Part shown: piece after piece, positions 4,243 to 54,827 of the stretch
Position numbering within the stretch: the stretch's first letter is position 1
Layout of the letters: every line of letters begins with the position of its first letter
NCBI GenBank assembly: GCA_020161855.1
Contig: JAIUNJ010000004.1
Location: 186,001-250,000, forward strand
DNA from: Pseudomonadota bacterium
Lineage (GTDB): Bacteria > Pseudomonadota > Alphaproteobacteria > Rhizobiales > Aestuariivirgaceae
Direction: 5' to 3'
Length of the DNA stretch: 64,000 bases
The notes under the pieces: model-generated
What the model saw: only the letters and a program-made list of their open reading frames with translations
Database searches by the model: none
What the model was told of the DNA's origin: nothing
Position numbers and translations under genes: made by a program

Positions 4243-4246
4243 GGCG

Positions 4247-4699
4247 ATGAAGCTGTTCCCTGCGGCCCTCGGCCTGCTGGCCTCGCTGGTTCTTTCAGCC
4301 ACAGCACTGGCCGTGCAGCCGGACGAAATCCTGAAGGACGCAACGCTTGAGGCGCGGGCCCGCAGCATCTCGGCAGGCCTCCGCTGCCTTGTCTGCCAGA
4401 ACCAGTCGATTGACGATTCCGATGCGCCGGTGGCGCGCGACCTGCGCATCCTGATCCGCGAACAGCTCACCCAGAACAAGAGCGATGCCGAAGTCGTGGA
4501 CTTCGTCGTTGCCCGCTATGGTGACTTCGTGCTGCTGAAGCCGCCGCTGCGGCTGGATACCCTGTTGCTTTGGGGTGGGCCCTTCCTGATCCTTGCCGTC
4601 GGCGGCCTGTTCCTGTGGCGCCGCCGCGCGCCGTCGGCCGCCGTGGAGCAACTGACGGCCGACGAGCAGGCCGAACTCGACAGGCTCTTGAAGCAGTAG
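4247..4699 (+). CDS. ccmH: Cytochrome c maturation thiol-reductase CcmH (CycL)
   Basis: A 150-residue protein with an N-terminal signal sequence (MKLFPAALGLLASLVLSATA), the redox motif LRCLVCQNQSI (Cys47 and Cys50) and a C-terminal transmembrane helix followed by a short charged tail. It reduces apocytochrome c thiols before haem attachment. ATG 4247 is preferred because it gives a clean signal peptide; a TTG four codons upstream at 4235 would overlap ccmF. This is the short CcmH/CycL form; the TPR part of E. coli CcmH is supplied by ccmI at the head of the operon. Confidence 0.95.
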   Translation: MKLFPAALGLLASLVLSATALAVQPDEILKDATLEARARSISAGLRCLVCQNQSIDDSDAPVARDLRILIREQLTQNKSDAEVVDFVVARYGDFVLLKPPLRLDTLLLWGGPFLILAVGGLFLWRRRAPSAAVEQLTADEQAELDRLLKQ

Positions 4700-4887
4700 C
4701 GCATCCGTGATCGCCCGGCCTGTGGATTGCCTCAATTCACAGCGAATCTGCGCCCGTTCCGCAGCTTCCGCCGTAATTGCCGCAAGGGCGCCATGTTGGT
4801 TACCGAGAATTCATGACAAGGAAAGGCGCAAGTAATCCGGCGCCTCCTATCTTCGTTTTCAAGTTCAATGCTTTCGGAGTTGAAACC

Positions 4888-6351
4888 ATGTCAGCCGCAA
4901 ACCTCACCACCACAAGAAAGACAATCTACGGATTGCTGGGCGCTGCCCTTCTCGGCACGTCCGTGCTCACGGCAAGCGCGCTGGCGCCCCTGCCGGTCCG
5001 CGCCGACACGGCGGTTGCCGTCATCGATCCGACCCGGAGCTTCGCGCCGCTCGTCGAGAAGGTCATGCCTTCGGTCGTCAGCGTTGAGGTAAAGCTCCGC
5101 GCCGTCAGCAACGAAGGCGGCCCTGACATGCAGCGCATGCCTGATGAATTCCGCCAGTTCTTCGACCAGTTCCCGCAGTTTCGTGACCGGTTGCCCAACC
5201 GTCCGCAGCAGCGCGGTGGCGGCATGGCCGAGGGTTCAGGCTTTGTGATCACGCCCGACGGCTATGTGGTGACGAACAACCATGTGGTGGACAATGCCTC
5301 GCAGGTGTCGCTCCGCTTCCAGAACGGCGACCTCTATGACGCCGATGTGGTCGGCACCGACCCCAAGACCGACCTGGCGCTGCTGAAGATCAAGAACAGC
5401 GACAAGAGCTTCCCCTTCGTGAAGTTCGCAAGCGCTGAGGCCAAGGTCGGCGACTGGGTGATGGCCGTGGGCAATCCCTTCGGCCTCGGTGGCACGGTGA
5501 CGGCCGGCATCGTCTCGGCCCGTGGCCGCGATATCGGCTCCGGCCCCTACGACGACTTCCTGCAGATCGATGCCTCCATCAACCGCGGCAATTCAGGCGG
5601 CCCCGCCTTCAATCTTGACGGTCAGGTCGTCGGCATCAACACCGCAATCTTCTCCCCCTCGGGAGGCTCGGTCGGCATTGGCTTCGCCATCCCGGCGTCC
5701 ACAGCCAACGACGTGATCGAGAGCCTCAAGGCCAATGGTGCGGTGACGCGCGGCTGGCTGGGCGTTCGCATCCAGGGCATTACCCCTGATCTCGCCGAAG
5801 GCCTCGGACTGAAGGAAGCCAAGGGCGCCATCATCTCGGACGTGACCGAGGATTCGCCTGCACTCAAGGCTGGCCTGAAGCAGGGCGACACGATCCTCAG
5901 GGCCAATGGCCAGGCCATCGCGGATGCCCGCGACCTGTCCAGGACCATTGCCAAGGTGAAGCCCGGTTCTGAAATCCCGGTGGATATCATCCGCAACGGC
6001 AAGGCCGAGACCATCAACGTGAAGATCGGCGTGATGCCGAACGACACGCCGCGGATGGCCTCCAAGCAGGACAAGCAGGACGACAAGCTCGACCTGTCGG
6101 CCCTGGGCCTCAACGTGACACCGGCCGATGACGGCGCCGGGGTGACGATCACAGCCATCGATCCGGACTCGCCTGCCGCCGAACGCGGACTTCAGCCCGG
6201 TGACGTGATCCTTGAAGTGGCCGGCACGCAGGTGACCAACCCGTCTGAAATCCAGAAGATCCTCAAGGGTGAGAAGGGCAAGAGCGTGGTCATGCTGGTG
6301 CGCTCCGGCGACAACCAGCGTTACATCGCACTTCCTCGTGAAAAGAGTTGA
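4888..6351 (+). CDS. degP: Periplasmic serine protease/chaperone DegP (Do family)
   Basis: This 487-residue HtrA-family protease has an N-terminal export signal, a trypsin-like domain and two PDZ domains (about residues 275-370 and 395-480). The catalytic triad is visible: His132 in TNNHVVDN, Asp162 in DPKTDLALLK and Ser236 in RGNSGGPAF. It degrades or refolds damaged envelope proteins. The start at 4888 (MSAANLTTTRKTIYG) directly precedes the signal helix; an in-frame extension to 4777 would add 37 non-family residues. A 188-base gap separates it from ccmH, so it probably has its own promoter, and a strong inverted repeat lies downstream. The next genes are a two-component pair, the usual rhizobial order. 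Confidence 0.95.
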   Translation: MSAANLTTTRKTIYGLLGAALLGTSVLTASALAPLPVRADTAVAVIDPTRSFAPLVEKVMPSVVSVEVKLRAVSNEGGPDMQRMPDEFRQFFDQFPQFRDRLPNRPQQRGGGMAEGSGFVITPDGYVVTNNHVVDNASQVSLRFQNGDLYDADVVGTDPKTDLALLKIKNSDKSFPFVKFASAEAKVGDWVMAVGNPFGLGGTVTAGIVSARGRDIGSGPYDDFLQIDASINRGNSGGPAFNLDGQVVGINTAIFSPSGGSVGIGFAIPASTANDVIESLKANGAVTRGWLGVRIQGITPDLAEGLGLKEAKGAIISDVTEDSPALKAGLKQGDTILRANGQAIADARDLSRTIAKVKPGSEIPVDIIRNGKAETINVKIGVMPNDTPRMASKQDKQDDKLDLSALGLNVTPADDGAGVTITAIDPDSPAAERGLQPGDVILEVAGTQVTNPSEIQKILKGEKGKSVVMLVRSGDNQRYIALPREKS

Positions 6352-33642: not shown

Positions 33643-34531
33643 CCGGAACGAGGGCACCACGCCGGGCGACAACCTGCGCTGCAATCTGCGCCGCGAACTG
33701 CGCAGCCTTCACGGCACTGTCACCCTGAACATAGCGCGCGAGGAAGCTCGCGCAGAAACTGTCGCCGGCGGCCGTGGTATCAACCACCTCCGGCGGAGCA
33801 ACCGCCGGGACATGCACTTTGGTTTCGCCCTCGAAGACAGTTGCCCCGCGCGCACCGTCCTTGACCACGATCACCTTTGCACCGGCCTCGAGGTATCGCT
33901 TGCCGATCATCGTCGCATCGCAGGGGCCAAAGACGGCGGTCTCGTCATCGAAACCCGGCAACACCACCTGCGCCGCCGCCGCTGCTTGCAGCATCAGGGC
34001 TTGCGTGTCGGTCCGGCCTTTCCAGAGGCGTGGGCGATAGTTTGTATCGAAGGCCACAAGCGCCCCGGCCTTGCCGGCCTCCTGCGCGGCGGCAATCAGT
34101 TGCTGCGCGTCATCGGGGGGCAGGATGGCAAGCGTGATACCAGACAGAAAGACGACATTGGCTGAGGCAAGGGCTTGCCGGAGGTGCTGCCGGTCGGTCG
34201 CAAGGCGCTTCGCGGCGGATGTGTCGCGCCAATAGGAGAAGCTGCGCTCGCCATTCTTGAGCGAGATCATGTAGAGGCCTGGCGCTGCTCCTTCGATCCT
34301 TTGCACAAGTCCCGTATCGATTCCTTCACTGGCCATAAAGCCTAGCATCTCGGCGGAGAGCGCATCGTCGCCGACAGCGGTCAGATAGGAGACCTGCCAG
34401 TCATCGGCCAGCAGCCTTCGCGCATACCAGGCCGTGTTGAAGGTGTCGCCCGCGAAGCCACGGCGCAGCAGGCCGTTGCCCTGGTCGGACAGTTCCACCA
34501 TGCACTCACCGATCGAAACAAAATGCTTCAT
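33620..34531 (-). CDS. 2-keto-3-deoxygluconate kinase-like PfkB sugar kinase
   Basis: A 303-residue PfkB-family kinase resembling KdgK: start MKHFVSIGECMVEL, substrate region around GDDALSAEMLGF, the YWRDTSAAKRL segment and the catalytic motif DTTAAGDSFCASFLARY. It phosphorylates 2-keto-3-deoxygluconate or a close keto-sugar acid. It overlaps the upstream small membrane gene by four bases (ATGA), so these genes are transcribed together, and overlaps the enoyl-CoA hydratase gene tail to tail. No aldolase is next to it. Confidence 0.83.
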   Translation of the reverse strand: MKHFVSIGECMVELSDQGNGLLRRGFAGDTFNTAWYARRLLADDWQVSYLTAVGDDALSAEMLGFMASEGIDTGLVQRIEGAAPGLYMISLKNGERSFSYWRDTSAAKRLATDRQHLRQALASANVVFLSGITLAILPPDDAQQLIAAAQEAGKAGALVAFDTNYRPRLWKGRTDTQALMLQAAAAAQVVLPGFDDETAVFGPCDATMIGKRYLEAGAKVIVVKDGARGATVFEGETKVHVPAVAPPEVVDTTAAGDSFCASFLARYVQGDSAVKAAQFAAQIAAQVVARRGALVPVSPSSGS

Positions 34532-34821
34532 GGCTGAACAGGCGTGTCCGCTTTGTGGCGCCAGAGCTCATAGCGCAGGCGCGCCGTGCGGTAGGCGTCG
34601 ATGACGCTCACACCATAGATGAACACGCCGCCGATGTGACGGCCGATGAAGGTAGCATCGGCAGGCATTAACTTGGCGCTGACCCAGCCAAGCACGGCCG
34701 TGAAGAACAGGAACATCAATCCGCGCTGAGCGAGCCCCAACCAAACATGGCCAGCGCCGGGAACGAGCAGCGCGGCAGCCAGGATCTTGTAGGGATGGGT
34801 GGGAATGTCAGCCGGTTCCAT
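34528..34821 (-). CDS. Small predicted membrane protein of unknown function
   Basis: A 97-residue protein with two or three hydrophobic helices. The LVPGAGHVWLGLAQRG segment, with small residues and a buried His, recalls TM2-like small membrane proteins, but I do not recognise a named family with certainty. It overlaps the start of the sugar kinase gene by four bases and the end of the upstream gene by 14 bases, showing operon structure. No function can be given. Confidence 0.7.
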   Translation of the reverse strand: MEPADIPTHPYKILAAALLVPGAGHVWLGLAQRGLMFLFFTAVLGWVSAKLMPADATFIGRHIGGVFIYGVSVIDAYRTARLRYELWRHKADTPVQP

Positions 34822-35497
34822 GTGAAGAAGCCAGTTCCTTGTCCATTGCGAGGAGCGTGTTCATGATTGTGGCCGCCACAGCGCCGTCGATATGGGCCGA
34901 ATCGAACCGTGCCTCGCGGAAGACGCCATAGCGCGCCCGGTCAGCTTCGGCGAGTTGGATGACAATGCGCAGGCCCTTCGGCGAAATCAGTATCTCCTTG
35001 CCCTGTCGCGTGAGCAGCAGCTGCAGGGCAGGCCGCAGGGCCTCCAGTGGTAATGCGGCATCTGCGGCATCGCTGCGGATGATGGCCTCTGGCGGAAATT
35101 CTGGGGGCGTCCGCAGTGTATGCGGGAGGAAGTCGAAACGCGAAAAGGTGGAATGCGCGGCCGGGCGCATCATCACATCCCATGTCGCCGTCACAGGCTG
35201 AGGCTTGGGAAGCGTTACCAGAAGCCAGAGGCTCGGCAATTTGCGCACCGCTAGCGTATCGACCACCGTCGTGAACTGGAAAATCTCGCCTGCATATCGG
35301 CCGCTCAGTTTCCAGCTTCCAGCCGAGTCCCCGGGCTTGCGTTCAACATTTTCGAGCAGTGGCTCGAGATCGGCGAACATGGCGCCCGCCGCTGTCGCAG
35401 CAAGGGCCTCCTTGAGCTTCACCTGGCGCCAGAGCAGGAACACCAGTGCGGCGGCCGCCAAGAAGCCAACGAGGTATTGAGAGTTGTCCATCTCCAT
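34808..35497 (-). CDS. Membrane-anchored protein of unknown function
   Basis: A 229-residue protein with one N-terminal membrane helix (about residues 8-24) and a soluble, mostly beta C-terminal part without a domain I recognise. It is the first gene of a three-gene operon with the small membrane protein and sugar kinase. An internal ATG two codons in is an equally likely start. Codon use resembles the neighbours, so it is probably a real conserved gene rather than a shadow. Confidence 0.65.
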   Translation of the reverse strand: MEMDNSQYLVGFLAAAALVFLLWRQVKLKEALAATAAGAMFADLEPLLENVERKPGDSAGSWKLSGRYAGEIFQFTTVVDTLAVRKLPSLWLLVTLPKPQPVTATWDVMMRPAAHSTFSRFDFLPHTLRTPPEFPPEAIIRSDAADAALPLEALRPALQLLLTRQGKEILISPKGLRIVIQLAEADRARYGVFREARFDSAHIDGAVAATIMNTLLAMDKELASSHGTG

Positions 35498-35545: not shown

Positions 35546-36946
35546 TCAGTAACCGCGCGGCTTCGGCCACGGCATGGTGAACTGCTCGCCGCGCCGCACG
35601 TAGCGGTACCTGTAGAAATGGAACCACAGCGACATGACGATGTAGAACACCACCATGGCCGTGAGCTGCGCTCCATAGCCAAGGAAGATGGCGAAGAACG
35701 TCACCACACAGAGAATGAACAGCACGATGGCCGGCAGCGGGTGGAACGGATGGGTATATCCACGGCGGATCGACCCAAGCGGCCACTTGTTCCGGAACAT
35801 CACGATGTTCACGCTCATGAAGGTGTAGTGCAGCACGCCCGACAGGATCGAGAAGGTGATGGCCTGCCCCAGGTTGGCGATGAAGGCGAAAGCCAGCGCA
35901 ATCGGCACCAGGAACAGGATCGACCGGTAAGGTGTGCGGTATTTCGGATGCACCGCCGAGAACCATGTCGGCAGGTAGCGGTCACGGCCAAGCGAGAACC
36001 AGGCGCGTGCCGCATCGTTGATGCAACCATTGGCTGATGCCAGTGCCGCCAGGATGGTGGCAATGAACATCATGTACTCAAGTGTCTTGCTGCCGGTCAG
36101 CTTGCCTGCGTCGAGCAGCGGGTAGTAAGTGTAGCCGAGATACTGCCATGGCATCAGCGAAGCGCAGACATACCAGGTGAGCGAGGCACCAACGAGCAGT
36201 GTGATCATCCCGGCCATCGTGCCATAGGGCAGCGAACGCGCAGGTGAACGCACTTCTTCGGCAGCCTGGGTCGTGCCCTCGATGCCGAGATAGTACCAGA
36301 TGCCCCAGTGAAAGCCGGCGATGACGCCGATCCAGCCGTAGGGCAGGGCATTGTCGGGCGTCACCATCTCACCGAGGCGCAGCACCGTTCCCTGGCTCCA
36401 CGGCTGCACCGAGAAGAAGAGAACGATAATGGCCAGATAGGCCACTGCCGTGATGACGAAGTTGACATTGAGCGTCATCAGCACGCCACGGTAGTTCAGC
36501 GCTGCAAGCGTGACGATGACGCCCGCAATGATGCCTTCGTAGTGCCATGACTCGAAGCCTTCGCCGGCGTAGGACTTGATCGTGTCGGCGATGAGGATGG
36601 CGTTGGAAACCTCCAGCATCGTGTAGGCAAAGACCAGATAAAGCGCCACGTTGAATGCCATGAGCGGCCCGACGATGTGCTTGGCCTGGGCATATTGCCC
36701 GCCTGCGGCGGCCACTGTCGACGTCACTTCCGAGTCGATCATGGCCACGGACGTGTAGAGCAGGCCGATCGTCCAGCAGATGATCAGCGCTGCAAGGGTG
36801 CCGCCCTTGTCGGCGGCGAAATTCCAGCCCGTGTATTCGCCCACAAGAACGATGCCCACGCCCAGGGCCCAGACATGGGCCGGGCCGAGTACGCGCGAGA
36901 GCGAGACTTTCTGGGGTGCCGAAGCGGCAGAAGCAGTGTTTGCCAT
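35546..36946 (-). CDS. APC-superfamily amino acid/amine permease (ethanolamine permease-like)
   Basis: A 466-residue transporter with about twelve membrane helices. It shows the APC pattern (VLVGEYTGWNFAADKGG in helix 1, GIEGTTQAAEEVRSPARSLP after helix 6) closest in character to ethanolamine permeases. ATG 36946 has a strong GAGGAGG ribosome site; the longer frame to 37000 would run into the upstream 53-residue gene. It is the last gene of a four-gene operon with three small membrane proteins and lies opposite the XRE-cupin regulator and the N-methylglutamate pathway genes, so methylamine or another N-methyl amine is the likely cargo. That substrate is inference from context. Confidence 0.86.
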   Translation of the reverse strand: MANTASAASAPQKVSLSRVLGPAHVWALGVGIVLVGEYTGWNFAADKGGTLAALIICWTIGLLYTSVAMIDSEVTSTVAAAGGQYAQAKHIVGPLMAFNVALYLVFAYTMLEVSNAILIADTIKSYAGEGFESWHYEGIIAGVIVTLAALNYRGVLMTLNVNFVITAVAYLAIIVLFFSVQPWSQGTVLRLGEMVTPDNALPYGWIGVIAGFHWGIWYYLGIEGTTQAAEEVRSPARSLPYGTMAGMITLLVGASLTWYVCASLMPWQYLGYTYYPLLDAGKLTGSKTLEYMMFIATILAALASANGCINDAARAWFSLGRDRYLPTWFSAVHPKYRTPYRSILFLVPIALAFAFIANLGQAITFSILSGVLHYTFMSVNIVMFRNKWPLGSIRRGYTHPFHPLPAIVLFILCVVTFFAIFLGYGAQLTAMVVFYIVMSLWFHFYRYRYVRRGEQFTMPWPKPRGY

Positions 36947-36956
36947 TTTGGCCTCC

Positions 36957-37118
36957 TCAGATCTTGTGCTTCTCGGAAACGGCCTCGATCTCGCCTTCAC
37001 GCGAGGATGTCAGCACGTCTTCGGAATAGGTGGAGTCGGTTCTGAACCAGTCGTAGAGCATCCACAGCAGGAGCACTGCGGAGATGGCCCAGCCGGCATT
37101 CGCAAGTGTGGTCCACAT
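36957..37118 (-). CDS. 53-residue single-pass membrane microprotein
   Basis: A short gene with a strong GAGGAGG ribosome site before ATG 37118 and a stop at 36957-36959, only 10 bases before the permease start. The protein begins MWTTLANAGWAISAVLLLWM, one membrane helix (about residues 8-24), and ends in an acidic, Ser-rich cytoplasmic tail. Its ribosome site is identical to that of the permease. It lies 10 bases after the 126-residue gene. Tight spacing and shared signals argue that it is translated and is a component or stabiliser of the permease. It is too small for many gene callers. Confidence 0.7.
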   Translation of the reverse strand: MWTTLANAGWAISAVLLLWMLYDWFRTDSTYSEDVLTSSREGEIEAVSEKHKI

Positions 37119-37128
37119 GTCTGCCTCC

Positions 37129-37509
37129 TCACTTGCCGTTGAACTTCTCGTCGATCACTTCGCGGTACTCCTTGTCGGAGGCTTTGAAGAGAAAGACGAA
37201 GTAGCCGATGATCACGACCGCCATGATGACGAGCTGCGTCCAGTCGATGCTGTAGTCGAACTTGTTCTGGATGATGTCATGGGCCGCAGCGGCATCAGCG
37301 AAGCCGAGTTTCACCCATTGTTCGACCTGTGCCGGCGTCTGTCCGAGTGCCTCCCATGTCGGGTTATCGATCTTCTGGATGGCGCGTGAGACGCCGGCCC
37401 AGCCAGCTTGCAGTGGCAGCCACAGGGCGAGGAAGATGGCCGCCACCACGAAGATGATGTCGATCCATTGCAGGGCCCGTGATTGTTCCGGGGGATTGTA
37501 TTTTGCCAT
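37129..37509 (-). CDS. 126-residue two-helix membrane protein in the permease operon
   Basis: ATG 37509 follows a GAGGGGG ribosome site. The protein has a first helix at about residues 17-35 (IIFVVAAIFLALWLPL), an approximately 55-residue presumably periplasmic loop and a second helix at about 91-110 (QLVIMAVVIIGYFVFLF), then a charged tail. I do not recognise a family. It lies 10 bases after the 95-residue gene and before the 53-residue gene and the permease. Longer frames upstream to 37785 overlap the previous gene and are not used. Confidence 0.75.
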   Translation of the reverse strand: MAKYNPPEQSRALQWIDIIFVVAAIFLALWLPLQAGWAGVSRAIQKIDNPTWEALGQTPAQVEQWVKLGFADAAAAHDIIQNKFDYSIDWTQLVIMAVVIIGYFVFLFKASDKEYREVIDEKFNGK

Positions 37510-37519
37510 GTTTGCCCCC

Positions 37520-37807
37520 TCAGCTCTTCCGCGACCTGGCCTGGTCGAGCATCTTGATGTCGAGGCCGTAGATGAAGTCCTTGTCGGCCGCATAGTTGCG
37601 GACCATGGCCCTGATCGATGCCGTGTTGAACGTGAGGACGGCCGCAGCGGCCAGCACGACAACGGTGCGCACCGTGTTGTCGGGAATATGCGGCCAGGCC
37701 ATGATGAGAACGAAGAGGACGACGATCCACAGGACCGCCACAAAGGTCCACGCCCCGCGCACATCGGCACGGTACATGGCCTCAATCCTCTGATTGAGGT
37801 CAGACAT
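37520..37807 (-). CDS. 95-residue two-helix membrane protein, first gene of the permease operon
   Basis: ATG 37807 follows GGGAGGAAA. The protein (start MSDLNQRIEAMYRADVRGAW) has two adjacent helices at about residues 22-41 and 47-64 and a basic cytoplasmic end. Its order resembles the small auxiliary subunits of some solute:sodium symporters in layout, not clearly in sequence. It begins the operon, facing the XRE-cupin gene. No known function. Confidence 0.75.
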   Translation of the reverse strand: MSDLNQRIEAMYRADVRGAWTFVAVLWIVVLFVLIMAWPHIPDNTVRTVVVLAAAAVLTFNTASIRAMVRNYAADKDFIYGLDIKMLDQARSRKS

Positions 37808-37981
37808 TATGATTTCCTCCCGCAGACCCGCCTGTTGTTCCCCGCAGCGAGCGAATCCGCCCCATTGTTGTTTGCTGTGGGGCAACTTTGTTTTCTTGCA
37901 GGAAACATGTAGCGGAATGGCTTGTCAAGGATGATGAAGTTTTGATCACAGGCTATAATCCATATAATAAGAAAATATACC
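37808..37981. promoter_or_regulatory. Divergent control region of the permease operon and XRE-cupin regulator
   Basis: This 174-base gap becomes markedly AT-rich in its right third. It holds two TATAAT copies at 37954-37959 and 37963-37968 on the plus strand and a perfect TTGACA (complement of 37923-37928) reading toward the permease operon. I could not find ideally spaced -35/-10 pairs for either direction. The regulator ATG at 37982 lacks a ribosome site, so its message may be nearly leaderless. It is the natural place for the regulator's operator. Confidence 0.45.
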
Positions 37982-38659
37982 ATGTTTGCGACTGAAAGTC
38001 AAGCGTCTAAAGCTGGCCGGATGCTGAAGGACACCAAAAGGAAACCCGCGGAGAGCTTCCAGAATCCCCACATGGCGCCCACCGGTGCGCGCCATCTGGA
38101 GGAAGCCATCGGCAGGGAAGTGAAGCGTCACCGTGAGAAAATGGGGCTCACCATCTCCGAACTGGCAAGCGCGTCCGGCATGTCGGCGGGCATGTTGTCG
38201 AAGATCGAGAACGGGGCAACCTCGCCGTCGCTGTCCACCTTGCAGGCCCTCAGCCATGCCCTGCAGATGCCGTTCACGTCACTGTTCAAGGGTTATGAGG
38301 AGTTTCGTGACGCGACCTTTGTGAAGGCGGGGCAGGGACTCACCATCGAGCGCCGTGGCACCCGCGCAGGCCACCAGTATCAGCTTCTGGGGCACAGCCC
38401 TCACGGGCCGGTCATGGTAGAGCCCTATCTGATCACGCTTACCCGCGAGACAGATGTGTTCCCGACGTTCCAGCATGCCGGTGCGGAGTTCATCTATATG
38501 CTCGAAGGCAATGTTGTGTATCGTCATGGCGACAAGACCTATGACATGCACCCGGGTGATGCCCTGTTCTTCGATGCCGAGGCACCGCACGGACCGGAGG
38601 AATTGCGCAAGCTTCCAGCCCGCTATATCTCCGTGATCAGCTACCGGCGCGACGAATAG
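37982..38659 (+). CDS. XRE-family regulator with C-terminal cupin domain
   Basis: A 225-residue regulator with a helix-turn-helix (residues about 45-98, GLTISELASASGMSAGMLSK) and a C-terminal cupin (about 150-220, with FQHAGAEFIYMLEGNVVYRH and DMHPGDALFFDAEAPHGP). Such HTH-cupin proteins (PuuR-like) often sense amines, polyamines or amino-acid-like ligands. It is divergent from the permease operon and lies upstream of the N-methylglutamate pathway genes, so it is the obvious candidate regulator of both. Confidence 0.9.
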   Translation: MFATESQASKAGRMLKDTKRKPAESFQNPHMAPTGARHLEEAIGREVKRHREKMGLTISELASASGMSAGMLSKIENGATSPSLSTLQALSHALQMPFTSLFKGYEEFRDATFVKAGQGLTIERRGTRAGHQYQLLGHSPHGPVMVEPYLITLTRETDVFPTFQHAGAEFIYMLEGNVVYRHGDKTYDMHPGDALFFDAEAPHGPEELRKLPARYISVISYRRDE

Positions 38660-38688: not shown

Positions 38689-39684
38689 ATGAATCCCCGC
38701 AAGAGCGTGTTCGCAGTCCTGTTGATGGTGTTGGCCTTGCCTGCTTCGGCACAGGTGCCGGAGCAGGGAACCTTTGTTGCCGCGAAGTCATGTCCGGCGG
38801 TTGTCTCGATCAAGAAGGGCAGCAATCCCGGCAATGCCAGTGTCCGGCCTGGCCAGTCCTATGCGCTTGTAGGCAAGAACAAGGATGAGGCCTCACATTA
38901 TTGGATCGAAGTGCCCGGCGCCGAGCCTTCCCGCCGCTGGGTCGCTGTGGATTGCGGTGGCATCAATGGCGAAGCGCCACAGGAGCAGCAGGCCGGATCG
39001 CCGCCAGCGGTGCCGGCGCCGTCCACTGATGCCTTCTACATTCTGGCCATCACCTGGCAGCCCGCCTTCTGCGAGCAGCATCCGGGCAAGGCGGAATGCC
39101 GTTCGCAGACCAGTGACCGCTACGATGCCTCGCATTTCACGCTGCATGGCCTGTGGCCGCAGCCGCGCGACAACGTCTTCTGCGATGTGTCCGCAGCCGA
39201 CCAGGCTGCGTCCGAGGGCGGGAACTGGAAAGCCATCGCGCCGCTTCCCCTGACCGCAGCCACGCACGCCGAGCTCGAAAAGGTGATGCCGGGCGCTCAG
39301 TCCGGCCTCGAACGGCATGAATGGATCAAGCATGGCAGTTGCTATCCGGGCAGGACGCCGGAGCGCTATTTTGCCGATGCGCTGCGCCTGATGAATGAAA
39401 TCAACAGTTCTGCTGCAGCGCGCCTCATGGCCGCAAATCCTGGCAAAACGGTCACATCGAAGGCGCTCCGTGCCGCCTTTGACGAGAGCTTTGGCGCAGG
39501 GGCCGGCGACCGGATCCGTGTGGCCTGCAAGGACGATGGCAAGCGCCGCCTGATTGTCGAGCTGACCCTCGGCTTGCGCGGAGATATTCCTGCCGGAACC
39601 TCCTTGTCCGACTTGTTAATGGCGTCGCGCCCGACCGATCCCGGCTGCCCGTCCGGCGTCGTGGACAGGGTGGGTCTGCAATAA
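38689..39684 (+). CDS. Secreted ribonuclease T2 family protein
   Basis: A 331-residue protein with a signal peptide (cleaved after about residue 21, PASA|Q), an N-terminal region of about 110 residues like an SH3-type accessory domain ending in a Pro-rich linker, and an RNase T2 domain. Both catalytic motifs are intact: FTLHGLWP (CAS1) and HEWIKHGSC (CAS2). It would cut RNA in the periplasm or outside the cell. It lies between the XRE-cupin regulator and mgsA; nothing connects it to amine metabolism except position. Confidence 0.88.
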   Translation: MNPRKSVFAVLLMVLALPASAQVPEQGTFVAAKSCPAVVSIKKGSNPGNASVRPGQSYALVGKNKDEASHYWIEVPGAEPSRRWVAVDCGGINGEAPQEQQAGSPPAVPAPSTDAFYILAITWQPAFCEQHPGKAECRSQTSDRYDASHFTLHGLWPQPRDNVFCDVSAADQAASEGGNWKAIAPLPLTAATHAELEKVMPGAQSGLERHEWIKHGSCYPGRTPERYFADALRLMNEINSSAAARLMAANPGKTVTSKALRAAFDESFGAGAGDRIRVACKDDGKRRLIVELTLGLRGDIPAGTSLSDLLMASRPTDPGCPSGVVDRVGLQ

Positions 39685-42742: not shown

Positions 42743-43354
42743 ATGGAACTTTCGGCGCTTGGTCTTTTCGCGGTGGCGCTGTTCGTGGCTGCTGGTTCGC
42801 CGGGCCCAAGCATTGCCGCGCTGGTGGCGCGCGTCATCACGAAAGGTCTCGGCAGTGTTCTGCCGTTTCTGCTGGCCCTCTGGATTGGTGAAGTCCTGTG
42901 GCTGGTTGCCGCCGTGACCGGGCTTGGTGTGGTCGCGGAGAAGTTTCACTATGTCTTTCTCACGATCAAATATCTCGGCATCGCCTATCTGGTCTGGCTG
43001 GCGTGGAAGATGTGGCACGCCCCTGTCGCGCTGAATGCCGACGAGATGCCGCAATCGGAATCGCCGTGGAAGCTCTTTGCGACCGGAATGGCGCTGACCC
43101 TGGGCAACCCGAAGATCATGGTGTTCTATCTGGCGCTCCTGCCATCGCTCATCGATGTCCGGCATGTTTCAACGGTTGGGCTCCTTGAACTGGTGCTTGT
43201 GGCATTCAGCGTGGTGATGATCGTTGATCTCAGTTGGGCTTATGCCGCCTCGTGGGCGCGGCGCTGGCTGAAGAGCCCGTGGGCCGTGCGCCTTGCCAAC
43301 CGCTCAAGTGCCGTTGCCATGGGAGGTGCGGCCGCCGCACTCGCCACGAAATGA
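42743..43354 (+). CDS. LysE/RhtB-family amino acid exporter
   Basis: A 203-residue protein with six predicted membrane helices and the LysE start LFVAAGSPGPSIAALVARVI. The family exports amino acids or related small molecules. It sits inside the N-methylglutamate operon, between mgsC and gmaS, so it could relieve build-up of glutamate-like intermediates such as N-methylglutamate; the substrate is inferred only from position. Confidence 0.88.
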   Translation: MELSALGLFAVALFVAAGSPGPSIAALVARVITKGLGSVLPFLLALWIGEVLWLVAAVTGLGVVAEKFHYVFLTIKYLGIAYLVWLAWKMWHAPVALNADEMPQSESPWKLFATGMALTLGNPKIMVFYLALLPSLIDVRHVSTVGLLELVLVAFSVVMIVDLSWAYAASWARRWLKSPWAVRLANRSSAVAMGGAAAALATK

Positions 43355-46378: not shown

Positions 46379-49254
46379 GCGGTTTCCGTCTCGGCAAGGG
46401 CGGTCTCATTGACCGTGACAGGCCGCTGAACTTCACCTTTGATGGCACGCCGCAGCAGGGCTTTGCCGGAGATACGCTTGCCTCCGCACTGATCGCGAGC
46501 GGAACCCACCTGATGGGGCGGTCCTTCAAGTATCATCGTCCCCGTGGGGCCATCACGGCTGGTGCAGCCGAACCCAACGCGCTGGTGGAACTGCGCGAAG
46601 GTGGGCGCAAGGAAGCCAACACCCGCGCCACCATGATCGAACTCTACGATGGCCTGGTGGCAAAGAGCCAGAACCGCTGGCCCTCGCTCAACTTCGATAT
46701 CGGCGCGCTGAACTCCCTCGCAGCATCGATCTTTGTTGCCGGTTTCTACTACAAGACCTTCATGTGGCCGAAGAGCTTCTGGGAGAAGATCTATGAGCCG
46801 CTGATCAGGCGTGCGGCCGGCCTGGGCACTGCCGCGAAGGAAGCCGATCCGGACCGCTATGAGAAATCATACGCGCATTGTGAGCTGCTGGTGATCGGCT
46901 CCGGTCCTGCAGGCCTGATGGCTGCGCTCGCAGGCGCAAGGTCCGGTGGTCGCGTGATTTTTGCAGATGAGGGCGCCGCCCTTGGTGGCTCGCTGCTGTT
47001 CGAGCAGGAAGAGATTGGTGGACAATCGGGGCTCGCCTGGGCGCGCGGGGTGATTGCCGAGCTCGCCGCCATGCCCAATGTCACGCTGCTGCCACGCACC
47101 ACAATCTTCGGCTGGTTTGATGGCAATGTGTTTGGCGCAGTCGAGCGCGTGGCAGATCATGTGGCGGCGCCGGATCACTCCGTGCCACGGCAGCGCTACT
47201 GGCGAATCTTTGCCGGCAAGGCCGTGCTCGCGACAGGGGCTGAAGAGCGCCCCATCGTGTTTGGCGGCAACGACGTGCCAGGCGTCATGACGGCCTCGGC
47301 CATGCGCCACTATGCCAATCGCTACGCGGCTGCGGCAGGGAGCTCCATTGCTGTCTTTGCCAACAATTCATCCGCCATGCGGACGGTGCGCGATATGCAG
47401 GCGCATGGCGTCAACATCGCAGCGGTCATCGACGCCCGCGAAGGTGAGCGTATCGTCAATGTGAAGGGCGGCAAGCGCGTTACTGGCATTGAGCTTGCCG
47501 ATCATGGCAGCATTCCCTGTGATGCTGTCGCCATGTCAGGTGGCTGGAGCCCTGTCGTCAACTTGATGTGCCACCGCGGCGCAAGGCCTGTCTGGGACGA
47601 GGCGCTGGCCGCCTTTTTGCCGCCCAATGTCGGCGAAGGTTTTGTTGCCGCCGGAGCGGCAGCCGGAAAGATGCTGCTCTCGCAGTGCCTTGCCGATGGT
47701 GCTGCCAAAGGTACGCTCAAGGGCCGGGTTCCCGCTGTGCCCAAATGCCGGGACGAGGCCTATCAGATATCGCCGCTGTGGTGGGTGAAGGAATCGGTGG
47801 GCAAGGCCTTTGTCGACTACCAGAATGATGTGACCGTGAAGGACCTGCCGCTTGCAGCCCATGAGGGCTACAGTCATATCGAGCTCGCCAAACGCTATAC
47901 GACGGCAGGCATGGCTACCGACCAAGGCAAGCTTGGCAACGTCAACGCCATTGGCATTCTCGCCGAGGCAACCGGCAAGTCTATCCCGGAGATCGGCACG
48001 ACGACCTTCCGGCCTTTCTATACGCCTGTCGCCTTCGGTGCCCTTGCCGGTCCCTTCACCGGCCAGCATTTCCAGCCAGTGCGCAAGACGCCGCTGCACG
48101 GCTGGGCCGAGGAACTGGGCGCTGTCTTTGTCGAGACGGGCCTGTGGATGCGCTCATCCTGGTTTCCGAAGGCAGGTGAAGACTGGCTTGCCGCCGCGTC
48201 CCGCGAGGTTCTGGCAACGCGCAGTGGCGTTGGCCTTTGCGATGTTTCGACCCTCGGCAAGATCGACGTGCAGGGCAAGGATGCGGGCAGGCTGCTGGAT
48301 ATTCTCTACTGCAACACCTTCTCGACGCTGGCCACAGGCAAGGCGCGCTACGGCCTCATGCTGCGCGAGGATGGCATTGTCTTCGACGACGGCACGACCT
48401 CCCGCCTTGCCGATGATCATTTTGTGATGACCACGACGACGGCCAACGCGGCCCGCGTGATGTCGCACATGGAGTTTGTGCATCAGGCGCTGTTCCCCGA
48501 ACTGGATGTGACCTACACCTCGGTGACGGAGCAATGGGCGCAGATGGCGATTGCCGGACCGCGCGCGCGCGACACCTTGAACAAGATCATTGATGGCGTG
48601 GCGCTCGACGACAACAACACGCCTTACCTTGCCGCCCGCGAGATCAGAATTCTCGGTGGCATGCCGGCGCGGCTCTTCCGCATCTCCTTCTCGGGCGAGC
48701 ATGCTTATGAGCTCGCGGTGCCCGCTGACTATGGCAATGCCGTTGCGCGCGCGCTGATGCAGGCAGGCGCTGCCTTTGGCATCGTGCCCTATGGTGTAGA
48801 GGCCTTGTCCATGATGCGTGTGGAGAAGGGCCATGTTGCCGGTGGCGAGCTGAACGGCACGACCACCGCTGCTGATCTCGGCCTCGGCAAGATGGTGTCG
48901 ACGAAGAAGGATTACATCGGCCGCATGATGGCGCAACGTGAGGGCCTGGTGGATGCCGGCCGTCAATGCGTCGTCGGCATCAGGCCGGTCGACAAGAGCG
49001 ACAGGCTTCGCGCCGGCTCCCATCTCCTCAAACAGTCGGATGCAGCCTCCATGGGCAATGACCAGGGCTATATCAGCTCGGTGGCCTGGTCGCCGATGCT
49101 GAATGAATGGCTGGGGTTGGCGCTGCTCGCGAACGGCCGCGCACGCCATGGTGAAGTGGTCCGGGTGTTTGACGGGCTGCGGGACAATTACATGCTCGCG
49201 GAAATCTGTGACCCGATGCATTTTGACCGTGAGAGCCGGAGGCTCCATGACTAA
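46375..49254 (+). CDS. mgdC: N-methylglutamate dehydrogenase subunit C (sarcosine oxidase alpha-type)
   Basis: A 959-residue large subunit. Parts in order: a 2Fe-2S-like N-terminal domain (residues about 1-110, with LNFTFDGTPQQGFAGDTLAS), an NAD(P)-binding disulfide-oxidoreductase-like domain (about 160-430, LLVIGSGPAGLMAALAGA) and a C-terminal GcvT/tetrahydrofolate-binding domain (about 590-959). Tetrahydrofolate captures the one-carbon unit made from the N-methyl group. The gene overlaps mgdB and mgdD. Confidence 0.92.
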   Translation: MSGFRLGKGGLIDRDRPLNFTFDGTPQQGFAGDTLASALIASGTHLMGRSFKYHRPRGAITAGAAEPNALVELREGGRKEANTRATMIELYDGLVAKSQNRWPSLNFDIGALNSLAASIFVAGFYYKTFMWPKSFWEKIYEPLIRRAAGLGTAAKEADPDRYEKSYAHCELLVIGSGPAGLMAALAGARSGGRVIFADEGAALGGSLLFEQEEIGGQSGLAWARGVIAELAAMPNVTLLPRTTIFGWFDGNVFGAVERVADHVAAPDHSVPRQRYWRIFAGKAVLATGAEERPIVFGGNDVPGVMTASAMRHYANRYAAAAGSSIAVFANNSSAMRTVRDMQAHGVNIAAVIDAREGERIVNVKGGKRVTGIELADHGSIPCDAVAMSGGWSPVVNLMCHRGARPVWDEALAAFLPPNVGEGFVAAGAAAGKMLLSQCLADGAAKGTLKGRVPAVPKCRDEAYQISPLWWVKESVGKAFVDYQNDVTVKDLPLAAHEGYSHIELAKRYTTAGMATDQGKLGNVNAIGILAEATGKSIPEIGTTTFRPFYTPVAFGALAGPFTGQHFQPVRKTPLHGWAEELGAVFVETGLWMRSSWFPKAGEDWLAAASREVLATRSGVGLCDVSTLGKIDVQGKDAGRLLDILYCNTFSTLATGKARYGLMLREDGIVFDDGTTSRLADDHFVMTTTTANAARVMSHMEFVHQALFPELDVTYTSVTEQWAQMAIAGPRARDTLNKIIDGVALDDNNTPYLAAREIRILGGMPARLFRISFSGEHAYELAVPADYGNAVARALMQAGAAFGIVPYGVEALSMMRVEKGHVAGGELNGTTTAADLGLGKMVSTKKDYIGRMMAQREGLVDAGRQCVVGIRPVDKSDRLRAGSHLLKQSDAASMGNDQGYISSVAWSPMLNEWLGLALLANGRARHGEVVRVFDGLRDNYMLAEICDPMHFDRESRRLHD

Positions 49255-49813
49255 GGCCGCTGCTGTGTTCACGCGCCCTTCGCCGCTGGCAGCAGTGGCG
49301 CGCGCTGGGCGCTTTGGTGCCGATCGCGGTGCGCCGGGCGTGTTGCTGTCCGTCGTTCACCCGCTGTCCCTGGTCACTGTCATTGCCCGTTCCGGCAAGT
49401 CGAAGGCCACGAGTGAGGTCCTTGCCGGATTGCGCAATGCCACGGCGATGTGGTCGGGACCGGATCAGTACTATGTGAAGAGCAGTTCCCATGGCGAGGG
49501 CGCCCTTTTTGCTGAATTGCGGAAGAAGCTCGCTGGTATTGCCTCGGTCATCGACCAGAGCCATGGTCGCGTTACCATCAGGATCAGCGGTGAAAAGGCC
49601 GTTGCCGTGCTGGCCAAGGGAACGCCGGTTGATCTTCATCCGGTTCACTTTGCGATCGGCAAGTCGGCGCTCACGCAGATGGCCCATGTCGGCATTCACC
49701 TGACCCGCACGGGCGAAGACAGCTTTGAGCTCTCGGTGTTCAGGGGCTTTGCCGAAAGCTTCTGGGAATGGCTCTGTGAAATGTCGCTGGAGTTCGGCTA
49801 TCAGGTGGCATGA
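49247..49813 (+). CDS. mgdD: N-methylglutamate dehydrogenase subunit D (sarcosine oxidase gamma-type)
   Basis: A 188-residue protein of the SoxG/gamma family, weakly conserved but recognisable by position, size and the C-terminal FRGFAESFWEWLCEMSLEFGY. ATG 49247 overlaps the end of mgdC; an open frame from 49103 is a shadow of mgdC. The stop overlaps the next start by four bases. It completes the four-subunit complex. Confidence 0.88.
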   Translation: MTKAAAVFTRPSPLAAVARAGRFGADRGAPGVLLSVVHPLSLVTVIARSGKSKATSEVLAGLRNATAMWSGPDQYYVKSSSHGEGALFAELRKKLAGIASVIDQSHGRVTIRISGEKAVAVLAKGTPVDLHPVHFAIGKSALTQMAHVGIHLTRTGEDSFELSVFRGFAESFWEWLCEMSLEFGYQVA

Positions 49814-50843: not shown

Positions 50844-52118
50844 TCAGACCTTGTGGCGTCGGCGCACCTGTGCCGGGCGTCCTGAGATCGAAAGGCTGGC
50901 ATCGCCGCGCGGGCTTCGCGAAATCACCTTGCCCTTGGCGATGACTGCCAGCCGGGCAGGGCGGAGGCGCAGCGCCTCAACTGTGTCCCCGGCATCGAGG
51001 ATGACGAGCGAGGCCTTGCAGCCGGGCTTGAGGCCATAGTCTTCCAGTCCGAGAATCCTGGCATTCTCCGCTGTCACCATGTCGAAGCAGCGGCGCATCT
51101 CTGCCGGATGGGTCATTTGCGCCACATGCAAGCCCATGAAGGCGACATCGAGCATGTCGCCGGTGCCGAGCGAGTACCAGGGATCGCGCACACAGTCCTG
51201 CCCCCAGCCTACGGTGATGCCATGGGCCTGCATCTCTTTCACGCGCGTGAGGCCCCGGCGCTTGGGAAACGTGTCATGCCGCCCCTGCAGCGTGATGTTG
51301 ATGAGTGGATTGGGAATGGCAGCAAGCCCGGCTTCCGCCATCAGCGGCAGAAGCTTCGAGACATAGTAGTTGTCCATTGAATGCATCGAGGTGAGATGGC
51401 TTCCGGCCGCGCGGCCCTGGAGGCCGAGACGCTGCACCTCATAGGCCAGCGTTTCCACGTGGCGGCTCAGCGGGTCGTCGGTCTCGTCGCAATGCAGGTC
51501 GACGCGCAAGCCGCGCTTCTCCGCAATCTCGCAGACATCGCGTACGGAAAGGCGGCCGTCGTCCATGGTACGTTCGAAGTGCGGAATGCCGCCGACAACA
51601 TCGACACCCATGTCGAGCGCCCGGATGAGATTTTCGCGCCCTGTCTTGCTGCGATACAGGCCATCCTGCGGAAAGGCGACGAGTTGCAGGTCGATATAGG
51701 GGGCGACTTTCTTCTTCACCTCCAGCATGGCTTCAACCGTGCGCAGGTGGTCCGGCGTCGTATCGACATGGCTGCGGATGTGCAGAAGCCCGAGCGAGGC
51801 GGCCCAGTCGCAATAGGAGATCGCGCGCTCCACCATCTCCGCGACGGTCGTCATGTCGCGAAGTTCGCCCCAGAGGGAAATACCCTCGAGAAGCGTGCCG
51901 CTGGCATTCACGCGCGGCAGGCCATAGCTGAGCACGGCGTCCATGTGGAAATGCGGGTCGACGAAGGGTGGGCTTACGAGATCTCCGGAAGCCTGGATCG
52001 TTTCCCGGGCCTGTGCTGCTCCCAGTTGCCCGACGTCGGCGATCCTGTCACCCTTGATGCCGATATCAGCCACGCTTCCGTCCGGCAGGGTGCCGCCGGT
52101 GATCAAAATATCAAACAT
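50844..52118 (-). CDS. Cytosine deaminase-like amidohydrolase
   Basis: A 424-residue amidohydrolase with the CodA motif series: VDPHFHMD (metal HxH), HCDETDD, SHLTSMH and WGQDCVRDPW (metal Asp). It is closest in pattern to cytosine deaminase and related isopropylammelide aminohydrolases. ATG 52118 follows AGGAAATGG; a longer frame to 52172 lacks support. It is divergent from a BMP-type nucleoside/base importer, supporting a role in deaminating an imported base or related ring. The substrate is not proven. Confidence 0.87.
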   Translation of the reverse strand: MFDILITGGTLPDGSVADIGIKGDRIADVGQLGAAQARETIQASGDLVSPPFVDPHFHMDAVLSYGLPRVNASGTLLEGISLWGELRDMTTVAEMVERAISYCDWAASLGLLHIRSHVDTTPDHLRTVEAMLEVKKKVAPYIDLQLVAFPQDGLYRSKTGRENLIRALDMGVDVVGGIPHFERTMDDGRLSVRDVCEIAEKRGLRVDLHCDETDDPLSRHVETLAYEVQRLGLQGRAAGSHLTSMHSMDNYYVSKLLPLMAEAGLAAIPNPLINITLQGRHDTFPKRRGLTRVKEMQAHGITVGWGQDCVRDPWYSLGTGDMLDVAFMGLHVAQMTHPAEMRRCFDMVTAENARILGLEDYGLKPGCKASLVILDAGDTVEALRLRPARLAVIAKGKVISRSPRGDASLSISGRPAQVRRRHKV

Positions 52119-52252
52119 CTGCCATTTCCTTGGGCATCGCGGCCCATTGCACAAAAATTGTGGATCGCGCAAAGTTTGACCATGTCATCCGGAAAAGCAA
52201 CGGGTGTACTGTAACCATAAGGGGAAAGCCGTCCCCACAGGGAGAAAGTCCA
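52119..52252. promoter_or_regulatory. Divergent region between deaminase and BMP importer
   Basis: A 134-base gap with CACAAAAATTGTG at 52150-52162 (5-base arms around AAA), a candidate operator midway, and TTGACC (52176-52181) reading toward the importer. No matching -10 at standard spacing was found. The importer ribosome site is GGGAGAAAG. Confidence 0.35.
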
Positions 52253-53272
52253 ATGAGCTCAAACATTTTCCGTTTCACGCGCCGCGATGCGTTGAAGCTG
52301 TCCGTCGCTGCTGCCGCGCTGCCTGTGCTGGGCGGCGGGCTGGCGCGCGCTGCCGGTCCGATCAAGACGGCTGCGATCTACACAGTGCCGGTCGAGCAGC
52401 AGTGGGTGAGCCGCATCCACAAGGCGGCGACCATCGCCAAGGATCGCGGTGACATTGAGTATGTGTTCTCGGAGAAGGTGTCGAACACCGACTACGAGCG
52501 CGTCATGCGCGAATACTGCGAGGCTGGCCATCAGCTCATTGTCGGCGAGGCCTTCGCTGTCGAGGATGCGGCGCGCGCCGTTGCCAAGGACTATCCCGAT
52601 CGCGCCTTCCTGATCGGCTCCAGCTTCAAGCCGGATGCCGCCGCAAACCCGAACTTTGCTGTCTTCGACAACTACATCCAGGATGCCTCCTACCTCACCG
52701 GCATCATTGCAGGCGCCCTCACCAAATCGGGCAGCATCGGCCTGGTCGGTGGCTATCCGATCCCAGAGGTCAACCGGTTGATGAATGCTTTCATGGCGGG
52801 TGTGAAGGAATCGCGCGCCGACGCGAAGTTCCAGGTGGCCTTCATCGGATCGTGGTTCGATCCGCCCAAGGCCAAGGAAACGGCGCTTGCGCAGATCGAC
52901 GCAGGCGCTGACCTGCTTTACGCCGAGCGCTTCGGCGTCTCCGACGCAGCCAAGGAGAAGGGCATCCTCGCTGTCGGCAATGTCATCGATACGCAGGCTG
53001 ACTATCCGGAAACCGTTGCGGCCTCGGCGCTGTGGCATTTCGAGCCCACGCTCGACGCTGCCATTGCAGCCGTGAAGGCTGGCAGCTTCAAGGCCGATGA
53101 CTATGGCCAGTATTCCTTCATGAAGGCAGGTGGCTGCTCGATTGCGCCCTACGGCACCTTCGATGCAAAGATTCCGGCCGATGTGAAAGCCAAGGTCGCC
53201 GAGAAGGAAGCTGCGATCAAGGCCGGAACCTTCACGGTCGCTATCGACGACAACGAGCCCAAGTCGTCGTAA
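52253..53272 (+). CDS. BMP-family ABC transporter substrate-binding protein
   Basis: A 339-residue periplasmic protein of the Bmp/PnrA family. The N-terminus FTRRDALKLSVAAAALPVLG with twin Arg and an Ala-rich stretch ending ARA|A resembles a Tat signal. The mature part has the two-lobe binding-protein fold with VEQQWVSRIHKAA and GLVGGYPIPEVNRLMNAF. BMP proteins bind nucleosides or purines. It heads an operon with one ATPase and two permeases, the standard set. Confidence 0.9.
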   Translation: MSSNIFRFTRRDALKLSVAAAALPVLGGGLARAAGPIKTAAIYTVPVEQQWVSRIHKAATIAKDRGDIEYVFSEKVSNTDYERVMREYCEAGHQLIVGEAFAVEDAARAVAKDYPDRAFLIGSSFKPDAAANPNFAVFDNYIQDASYLTGIIAGALTKSGSIGLVGGYPIPEVNRLMNAFMAGVKESRADAKFQVAFIGSWFDPPKAKETALAQIDAGADLLYAERFGVSDAAKEKGILAVGNVIDTQADYPETVAASALWHFEPTLDAAIAAVKAGSFKADDYGQYSFMKAGGCSIAPYGTFDAKIPADVKAKVAEKEAAIKAGTFTVAIDDNEPKSS

Positions 53273-53276
53273 GCGC

Positions 53277-54827
53277 ATGTCCCGGGAAAATGCCGGTGAG
53301 GCGGAGATTGTTCTCCGGCTTGCCGGCATCACCAAGCGCTTCGGCCCACTTGTTGCCAACGACAATGTCTCGCTGACGCTTCGGCGCGGCGAGATTGTTG
53401 GCCTTCTGGGTGAGAACGGCGCAGGCAAAACTACTCTCATGAATATCCTTTTCGGCCATTATGTCGCCGATGAAGGGTCGATCGAGGTGGATGGTACGCC
53501 TCTGCCTGCGGGATCACCGGGTGCCGCGCTGGCGGCCGGCATCGGCATGGTGCACCAGCATTTCACGCTGGCGGACAATCTCACGGTGCTGGACAACATC
53601 ATTCTCGGCACCGAGCCGCTGTTGCGCCTGTCATCGCGCCGCAATGCCGCGAAGGCGCGGGTGCGGGAGCTGGCGGAAGCGTTCGGGCTGGCGGTCGATC
53701 CGGATGCAACAGTCTCGGCGCTTTCGGTAGGTGAGCGTCAGCGCGTCGAAATCCTCAAGGCGCTTTATCGCGAGGCGCGTGTGCTCATTCTTGATGAACC
53801 GACAGCAGTGCTGACGCCGCAGGAAAGCACGTCGCTTTTCGAAACACTGAAGAAATTCGCAGACCGCGGCCTCTCCATCATTTTCATCTCGCACAAGCTG
53901 GGCGAGGTTCTGGCAGCCTGTCACCGCGTGGCTGTGCTCCGGGGCGGCAAGCTCGTGGCGGAGCGGCCCGTTGCCGGTGCCACTCGCGCTGATCTCGCGG
54001 AACTCATGGTCGGCCGCACGATTGCACCGCCCAAGGCGGAACCTCAACCCGCAGGTCCAGCCATTCTGGAATTGTCCGGCATCGCGGCGCGGCGTGGCGC
54101 ACAAAAGCTGGAGAGCTTGTCTCTCGCGCTTCATGGCGGCGAAGTGCTGGGGATTGCGGGCGTGTCAGGCAACGGGCAAAGCCTGCTGGCTGATCTCATC
54201 TCCGGCCTGGTGACCCCCGCCACTGGCACAATGACATTGAAGGGCAAGGTGCTGGCCTCGCCATCTCCGCGCCAGATGGTTGCGCAAGGTGTGGCGCGCA
54301 TCCCCGAGGATCGCCACGCCGAGGGCCTGGTCGGTGACATGAGCGTATCGGAGAATGTCGTCTCGGAGGCTTATCTGACACCGGCATTTTCCCACCACGG
54401 CTTCATCGACTGGAAGAAGGCGCGCGAATTCGCCCTGAAGATCATCAAGGACTATGACGTCAAGTGCCCCGGGCCCGAGGCGCGGGTGCGGCTTCTCTCG
54501 GGCGGCAACATGCAGAAGCTGATTCTTGGTCGCGTCATGGCCAATGATCCCGTGATCGTGCTTGCGAACCAGCCCACGCGCGGGCTCGACGTGGGCGCTG
54601 TCACCTATGTTCATGAACAACTTCTGGCGGCCCGCAAGCGGGGTGCGGCTGTTCTCCTGATCTCCGAAGATCTAGATGAGTTGCTCTCGCTCTCCGACAA
54701 GGTGGCCGTGATCTATCGTGGGCAGCTGTCACCGGTTATCAGGCGCGCGGATGTGACGATTGCTGATCTCGGCCTGCGGATGGCGGGCCAGGGCTTTGAG
54801 CATGGTGGGGAATCCCATGCGGCTTGA
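53277..54827 (+). CDS. ABC transporter ATPase (two fused ATPase domains)
   Basis: A 516-residue protein with two nucleotide-binding domains. The first has Walker A GENGAGKTTL, signature LSVGERQRVEI and Walker B VLILDEPTAVL. The second has a degenerate Walker A (GVSGNGQSLL) and signature LSGGNMQKLIL with VIVLANQPTRGLD, a pattern common in sugar/nucleoside importers of this family. It follows the binding-protein gene by four bases and overlaps the first permease gene. Confidence 0.95.
   Translation: MSRENAGEAEIVLRLAGITKRFGPLVANDNVSLTLRRGEIVGLLGENGAGKTTLMNILFGHYVADEGSIEVDGTPLPAGSPGAALAAGIGMVHQHFTLADNLTVLDNIILGTEPLLRLSSRRNAAKARVRELAEAFGLAVDPDATVSALSVGERQRVEILKALYREARVLILDEPTAVLTPQESTSLFETLKKFADRGLSIIFISHKLGEVLAACHRVAVLRGGKLVAERPVAGATRADLAELMVGRTIAPPKAEPQPAGPAILELSGIAARRGAQKLESLSLALHGGEVLGIAGVSGNGQSLLADLISGLVTPATGTMTLKGKVLASPSPRQMVAQGVARIPEDRHAEGLVGDMSVSENVVSEAYLTPAFSHHGFIDWKKAREFALKIIKDYDVKCPGPEARVRLLSGGNMQKLILGRVMANDPVIVLANQPTRGLDVGAVTYVHEQLLAARKRGAAVLLISEDLDELLSLSDKVAVIYRGQLSPVIRRADVTIADLGLRMAGQGFEHGGESHAA

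Follow-up and report, generated by a model that had tools for sequence, protein, structure and literature searches.

A conserved six-gene cassette around an APC-family permease as a candidate multi-component methylamine carrier

Introduction

Does an APC-family permease that is encoded together with small membrane proteins, opposite the genes of an N-methylglutamate pathway, form one transporter with them, and would its cargo be methylamine? The question is raised by a 64,000-nucleotide stretch of an alphaproteobacterial genome (contig JAIUNJ010000004.1), referred to here as the window. APC carriers are mostly described as working solo, or as paired with a single heavy chain in the case of animals, according to the available extract of PMC5803215. 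A literature search drawing on the accessible parts of openly available papers returned no paper recognized as naming the small partner genes. A preliminary description of the locus proposed three small membrane proteins as partners of the permease and an amine as its cargo. Both proposals were followed up by comparing the locus with related genomes, plasmids, protein families and structures.

Organization of the operon

The operon consists of six close-set genes on the minus strand, running from position 37807 down to 34528 in the order SmP1, SmP2, SmP3, permease, G5, and G6. SmP1, the first gene (37520–37807), encodes a 95-residue protein with two predicted helices and a kept motif around F-N-T-A-S-I and D-K-x-F-I-Y-G-L-D-I. 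SmP2 (37129–37509, 126 residues) also contains two predicted helices, separated by a loop of about 50 residues that probably faces outside. SmP3 (36957–37118, 53 residues) contains a single predicted helix, and its S-S-R-E-G-E tail is conserved. The permease (35546–36946) is 466 residues long and carries a conserved glutamate, Glu37, in the break of TM1. G5 (34808–35497, 229 residues) is predicted to be composed of one N-terminal helix and an α/β domain and is probably cytoplasmic. G6 (34528–34821, 97 residues) is a small membrane protein with a weak resemblance to DUF6677. The coordinates of SmP1, SmP2, SmP3, and the permease include stop codons, and the helix counts derive from hydropathy windows above threshold, with overlapping windows merged by hand.

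The preliminary description had recognized an operon of three small membrane genes with two, two, and one helices, followed by the permease, with gaps of about 10 bases and a ribosome site before every gene. These four genes are as it stated. Hydropathy windows of SmP1, SmP2, and SmP3 give the same helix counts, each of the three gaps measures 10 bases, and every start is preceded by a purine-rich site recognizable by eye. G5 and G6 had been overlooked, and the set is five partner genes plus one permease.

Selection on the small genes, which had been in question, is evident from close pairs, where all six cassette genes are under purifying selection. Across the six close pairs tested, every one of the six genes has an NG86 dN/dS of 0.00–0.27. 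In the two pairs that include the window, it is 0.08–0.25 for five genes and 0.41–0.42 for G5, the latter at a dS above 1.3.

In S. meliloti Ak57 (L034, 11779–13398), no stop separates SmP3 from the permease, and the two are read as a single open frame. The stop is kept in three other Sinorhizobium records (L152, L153, and L154), and the fusion was rejected as proof of a complex. As it is missing from these records, it may represent a strain change or a sequencing error.

Conservation and distribution of the cassette

The gene order of the cassette is conserved far beyond chance. The comparison covered 85 large loci, comprising the best 80 of 560 relatives from a genome scan, mostly Mesorhizobium, and five plasmid loci; 83 of them contain all six genes in a single order and on a single strand. 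The other two loci (L039 and L050) are incomplete because contig ends fall inside the cassette.

Among 297 genomes of the order, the permease is present in 43 (E ≤ 1e-60) and SmP2 in 44. The mismatch concerns one genome (G004), in which a contig end cuts the cassette. SmP2 lies within 3.5 kb of 44 of the 45 permease copies in this sample, confirming that the small genes and the permease are kept together. A second permease copy in G031 adjoins SmP1 and is 12 kb from SmP2. None of the 297 genomes was found to contain the permease without SmP2, whereas the preliminary description would have been refuted by a permease occurring alone in most N-methylglutamate loci. The idea of a permease functioning without partners was rejected, no such genome being present among the 297.

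The cassette is present in 11 of 122 genera of the order sample. It is rare outside the order, being found in 6 of 385 class genomes and 14 of 398 phylum genomes, with the genome of the window included in both counts. Each of the five other class genomes has SmP1, SmP3, and the permease next to SmP2. A plasmid search with the permease returned 22 records at 62.7–67.0% identity and nothing further above 29%, and a search with SmP2 returned the identical 22 records among 72,556. On the plasmid of Rhizobium sp. RCAM05350, the permease match is split in two; there the permease frame is interrupted (L155, about 4001–5396) and the neighboring small genes are annotated. Annotated records of Aminobacter, Paracoccus, and Pseudohalocynthiibacter contain the six genes, with an amino acid permease amid hypothetical proteins, and all six are present as open frames in Paraburkholderia. 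The cassette permeases of two loci from the genus of the window (L119 and L120) group with those of Paracoccus and Pseudohalocynthiibacter, not with that of the window. This grouping suggests either transfer or two old cassette types within one genus.

Association with N-methylglutamate genes

The cassette is strongly tied to methylamine use. The marker gmaS, called by TIGR03105 above its cut-off, is positive in 104 of the 297 genomes of the order. It is found in 43 of 44 cassette genomes versus 61 of 253 others (Fisher p = 8e-22, uncorrected for kinship). TIGR03105 is not specific to methylamine, as 1 of 14 control genomes also scores above its cut-off. All but one of the cassette genomes are positive, so the linkage to gmaS, which the preliminary description proposed to check, is strong, but it does not hold in reverse. 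The cassette is missing from 61 of the 104 gmaS genomes and is thus not a required part of the N-methylglutamate pathway.

The best gmaS copy is less than 12 kb from the cassette in 25 of the 44 genomes; 6 have it on the same contig at a greater distance, 12 have it on a different contig, and 1 has none. Several cassette loci are surrounded by unrelated genes. In the genome loci from the best 80 of 560 relatives, mostly Mesorhizobium, a Sinorhizobium gmaS query matches in 60 of 80, and dmm genes for dimethylamine are present in 54–55. The plasmid of A. niigataensis MD1 carries the cassette about 12 kb from an mgd gamma gene. The plasmid methylamine genes of this strain are raised on dimethylamine, as stated in the accessible part of PMC9699525. 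The extract available from PMC5023235 reports amino-acid permease homologs of M. universalis FAM5, which may or may not be of the cassette type, that are raised on methylamine.

Copies beside methylamine dehydrogenase genes

Parts of the cassette adjoin methylamine dehydrogenase (mau) genes in four genomes. In a divergent copy in G031 (L117), whose permease is 58% identical, the mau cluster is flanked by SmP1 and the permease at one end and by SmP2 at the other. SmP3, G5, and G6 were not found in the 19 kb around this cluster. MauB, MauE, MauA, and a MauG-type protein of the cluster score above Pfam cut-offs, MauJ and a thioredoxin-like MauD candidate score below, and a MauF candidate is unmatched. 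In G124 (L124), the full cassette is located about 2 kb after a mauA-containing cluster, in which only mauA is profile-confirmed and the other mau genes are read by resemblance. Two tandem permease copies are present in this cassette (L124, 9877–12683). SmP2 and mauA were located in G733 and G693 and are less than 4 kb apart. Ahead of their mau genes, L117 (5428–7592) and L124 (100–2296) each contain a response regulator gene and a histidine kinase-like gene.

Family f2, with 79 genomes, contains mauA in 7 and SmP2 in 24; SmP2 is present in 6 of the 7 mauA genomes versus 18 of the 72 others (p = 0.0027). Eleven mauA genomes were seen, many of them chosen for carrying the cassette. Cassette parts are nearby in four, SmP2 is on another contig in six, and one is without SmP2. 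As all eleven also carry gmaS, the connection to mau is purely positional.

Methylamine dehydrogenase acts outside the inner membrane and hence needs no importer. The mau-linked copies would thus fit a non-import role, and the frequent dmm genes among the best 80 of 560, mostly Mesorhizobium, loci point the same way. The cassette could on these grounds move something else, exporting surplus ammonium or methylamine derived from dimethylamine, or carrying another small amine. The strongest association, however, is with gmaS, a cytoplasmic enzyme that consumes methylamine, and we consider such a role quite unlikely.

Permease family and the acidic residue of TM1

The permease is a member of the APC family, scoring 109.3 bits against AA_permease_2 (PF13520; cut-off 27). 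It scores 168.6 bits against the ethanolamine permease model TIGR00908, less than half of the cut-off of 381.75, and was rejected as a member of the ethanolamine permease family. The sequence G-E-Y-F-G-W, and with it the acidic TM1 residue, is common to the three annotated ethanolamine permeases compared.

An acidic residue is present in TM1 of all 54 distinct permease frames that contain the flanking pattern. It is Glu in 53 and Asp in one, the mau-linked copy of L117. To avoid circularity, the count excluded 80 loci that had been found by a motif containing Glu37. With duplicates kept, 2 of 73 permease frames are without the flanking pattern: the frame of L155 starts downstream of TM1, and that of L018 still reads G-E-F-M-G-W.

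The position aligned with Glu37 is Val or Ile in the five solved homologs shown, which are two CAT4, one xCT consensus, and two GkApcT structures. In GkApcT, the substrate carboxylate is bound by the amides of Thr43 and Gly44, as described in the portion of PMC5803215 at hand. These two residues align with Val35 and Gly36 of the permease, just before Glu37. From this alignment, the acidic residue of TM1 may replace the carboxylate that a simple amine is missing. The LeuT-like family shows a comparable switch between carriers of amino acids and carriers of amines. The permease looks, from its sequence, built for an amine, and the proposal of an amine cargo gains support from the mau-linked copies and the acidic TM1 residue. 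With respect to a different cargo or to export, the residue favors an amine and leaves the direction unset.

Families and folds of the partner proteins

SmP1, SmP2, SmP3, G5, and G6 match no Pfam or NCBIfam model above its cut-off. G6 of the window scores 19.9 bits against DUF6677, below the gathering score of 24.3; this family is matched by 11 of 14 G6 members at E ≤ 0.1, with a best value of 8.1e-5. Profile searches against solved structures returned no chain up to E = 1 for G5 and SmP1, and one chain, at E = 1, for SmP2. The structure of SmP2 was poorly predicted (pLDDT 68, pTM 0.31). In L139–L146 (genomes G333, G460, G557, and G633), the SmP2 profile matches in two pieces within a single open frame, which would fit an insert in the loop.

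The predicted fold of G5 gives weak matches (Foldseek E 1.7e-3, TM-score 0.35/0.44, 9–10% identity) and weakly resembles that of the transporter partner TtfA. Chains of the multipass translocon, probably CCDC47, a membrane protein biogenesis factor, may also resemble it. This second resemblance would suit a permease that acts alone, with the five partners serving as biogenesis, stability, or regulation factors and not as subunits. The L117 copy, with no SmP3, G5, or G6 detectable nearby, is likewise compatible with such an arrangement. The same divergent copy nevertheless keeps SmP1 and SmP2, and the partner genes are linked one-to-one with a single permease clade. A general chaperone would presumably accompany further permeases as well. 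We regard a permease acting alone as rather unlikely.

Neighboring genes and candidate regulation

A gene for an XRE-cupin regulator (37982–38659, plus strand) is divergent from the operon and has a homolog in 57 of the 80 loci representing the best 80 of 560 relatives. The preliminary description placed this gene at the head of a complete N-methylglutamate pathway facing the operon. The two do face each other, but an RNase T2-family gene (38689–39684) intervenes between the XRE-cupin gene and mgsA. The facing side is sequentially composed of the XRE-cupin gene, the RNase T2-family gene, mgsABC, a LysE-type exporter gene (42743–43354, between mgsC and gmaS), gmaS, and mgdABC. A 236-residue frame at 49103–49813 occupies the expected place of mgdD, an identity given by position alone. 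Past the N-methylglutamate genes (50844–54827), an amidohydrolase-like gene and frames resembling a BMP-type binding protein and an ABC ATPase were seen by eye.

An imperfect dyad, GTTTCCTGCAAGAAAAC (37890–37906, minus strand), is located upstream of SmP1 and is a candidate operator. A TTGACA hexamer (37923–37928) is near it. In a comparison with 25 other loci, made without a shuffle control, a dyad at similar distance has 3–4 mismatches in 9 loci, and 5–8 mismatches are found in 16. With up to three mismatches allowed, the 15-base core has three matches in the window, two of which are one overlapping site, against 0.8 expected. No second copy of the core was found near the N-methylglutamate genes of the window; the idea of a shared operator was rejected, and no regulon is proposed.

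The predicted cytoplasmic domain of G5 also raises the idea that the unit is a methylamine sensor, in which an APC-fold protein and its partners would detect the amine in the manner of the GerAB-type germinant receptors. GerA is a three-subunit receptor with GerAB, as presented in the accessible section of PMC8038838. No kinase, cyclase, or other output domain was found in the six proteins with Pfam and NCBIfam, and the XRE-cupin regulator already faces the operon. Both points argue against a sensor, which we hold to be most improbable.

Proposed mechanism

The six genes are best read as one functional unit, a multi-component carrier for methylamine uptake, to which we assign a probability of roughly 0.55. 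This reading draws on the gene set, its order and selection, the co-occurrence with gmaS, the adjacency to mau genes in some genomes, and the acidic residue of TM1. The cassette would move methylamine as methylammonium, most likely inward, and would supply the N-methylglutamate pathway. The permease would be the carrier. Glu37 in the TM1 break would substitute for the absent carboxylate of the substrate and pair with its ammonium group. SmP1, SmP2, and SmP3 would be small helical subunits packed against the permease in a physical complex, with the SmP2 loop on the outer face. G5 would be positioned on the cytoplasmic face, where it may stabilize, assemble, or couple the carrier, and G6 may assist from inside the membrane. 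The operon would probably be controlled by the XRE-cupin protein.

A more far-reaching proposal, which we make tentatively and with more doubt than confidence, is that an APC permease and as many as five membrane proteins dedicated to it, all of them outside the described families, constitute a bacterial multi-subunit carrier and a high-affinity methylamine uptake machine. It would have spread with methylotrophy genes and been adopted by both N-methylglutamate and methylamine dehydrogenase clusters.

A carrier that retains five partner genes in records from alpha-, beta-, and gammaproteobacteria would offer a bacterial model for a multi-part APC transporter. The cassette would give names to five protein families that are currently annotated as hypothetical, and it would provide a testable gene set for methylamine entry.

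Comparison with known systems

The ethanolamine permease Eat (TIGR00908) shares the APC fold and the TM1 motif G-E-Y-x-G-W with the cassette permease, and it is annotated for an amine cargo that lacks a carboxylate. The two are only 25–28% identical.

Some LeuT-fold symporters have a small membrane partner, as in ActP-YjcH (DUF485) and the DUF4212 pairs, where carrier and partner are encoded together. These systems differ from the cassette in that the carrier belongs to another family and has one small protein, whereas the cassette has five partners. DUF485 and DUF4212 gave no match in SmP1, SmP2, and SmP3 of the window up to E = 1, or in 19 SmP1 members up to 0.1.

The heteromeric SLC7/SLC3 transporters resemble the cassette in that a membrane protein is dedicated to the APC carrier as its partner (PMC5803215, in the part available). 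Their partner is one single-span glycoprotein, in contrast to five small proteins. An SLC3-like partner with an amylase-like ectodomain had no Pfam match in the six proteins of the window or in 19 SmP1, 22 G5, and 14 G6 members. In the crystal of GkApcT, the single-helix small protein MgtS packs on TM5 of the APC carrier; according to the same extract (PMC5803215), MgtS originated in the E. coli strain used for expression, and the cargo of GkApcT is amino acids.

TtfA and G5 both contain an N-terminal helix followed by a domain, and the predicted folds of the two domains may be related. TtfA binds MmpL3, whose transport requires it, as reported in the accessible text of PMC6593404. The two proteins are, however, 9% identical, and TtfA is mycobacterial with a transporter of a type unrelated to APC.

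Amt proteins encoded beside N-methylglutamate genes belong to a transporter family unrelated to the cassette permease. In the sections available, an amt gene of Pseudomonas sp. C5pp next to gmaS is called a methylamine transporter (PMC8292978), and amtB is named in a locus legend (PMC5520151). As Amt is the published candidate in other systems, the cassette may be an alternative route of entry.
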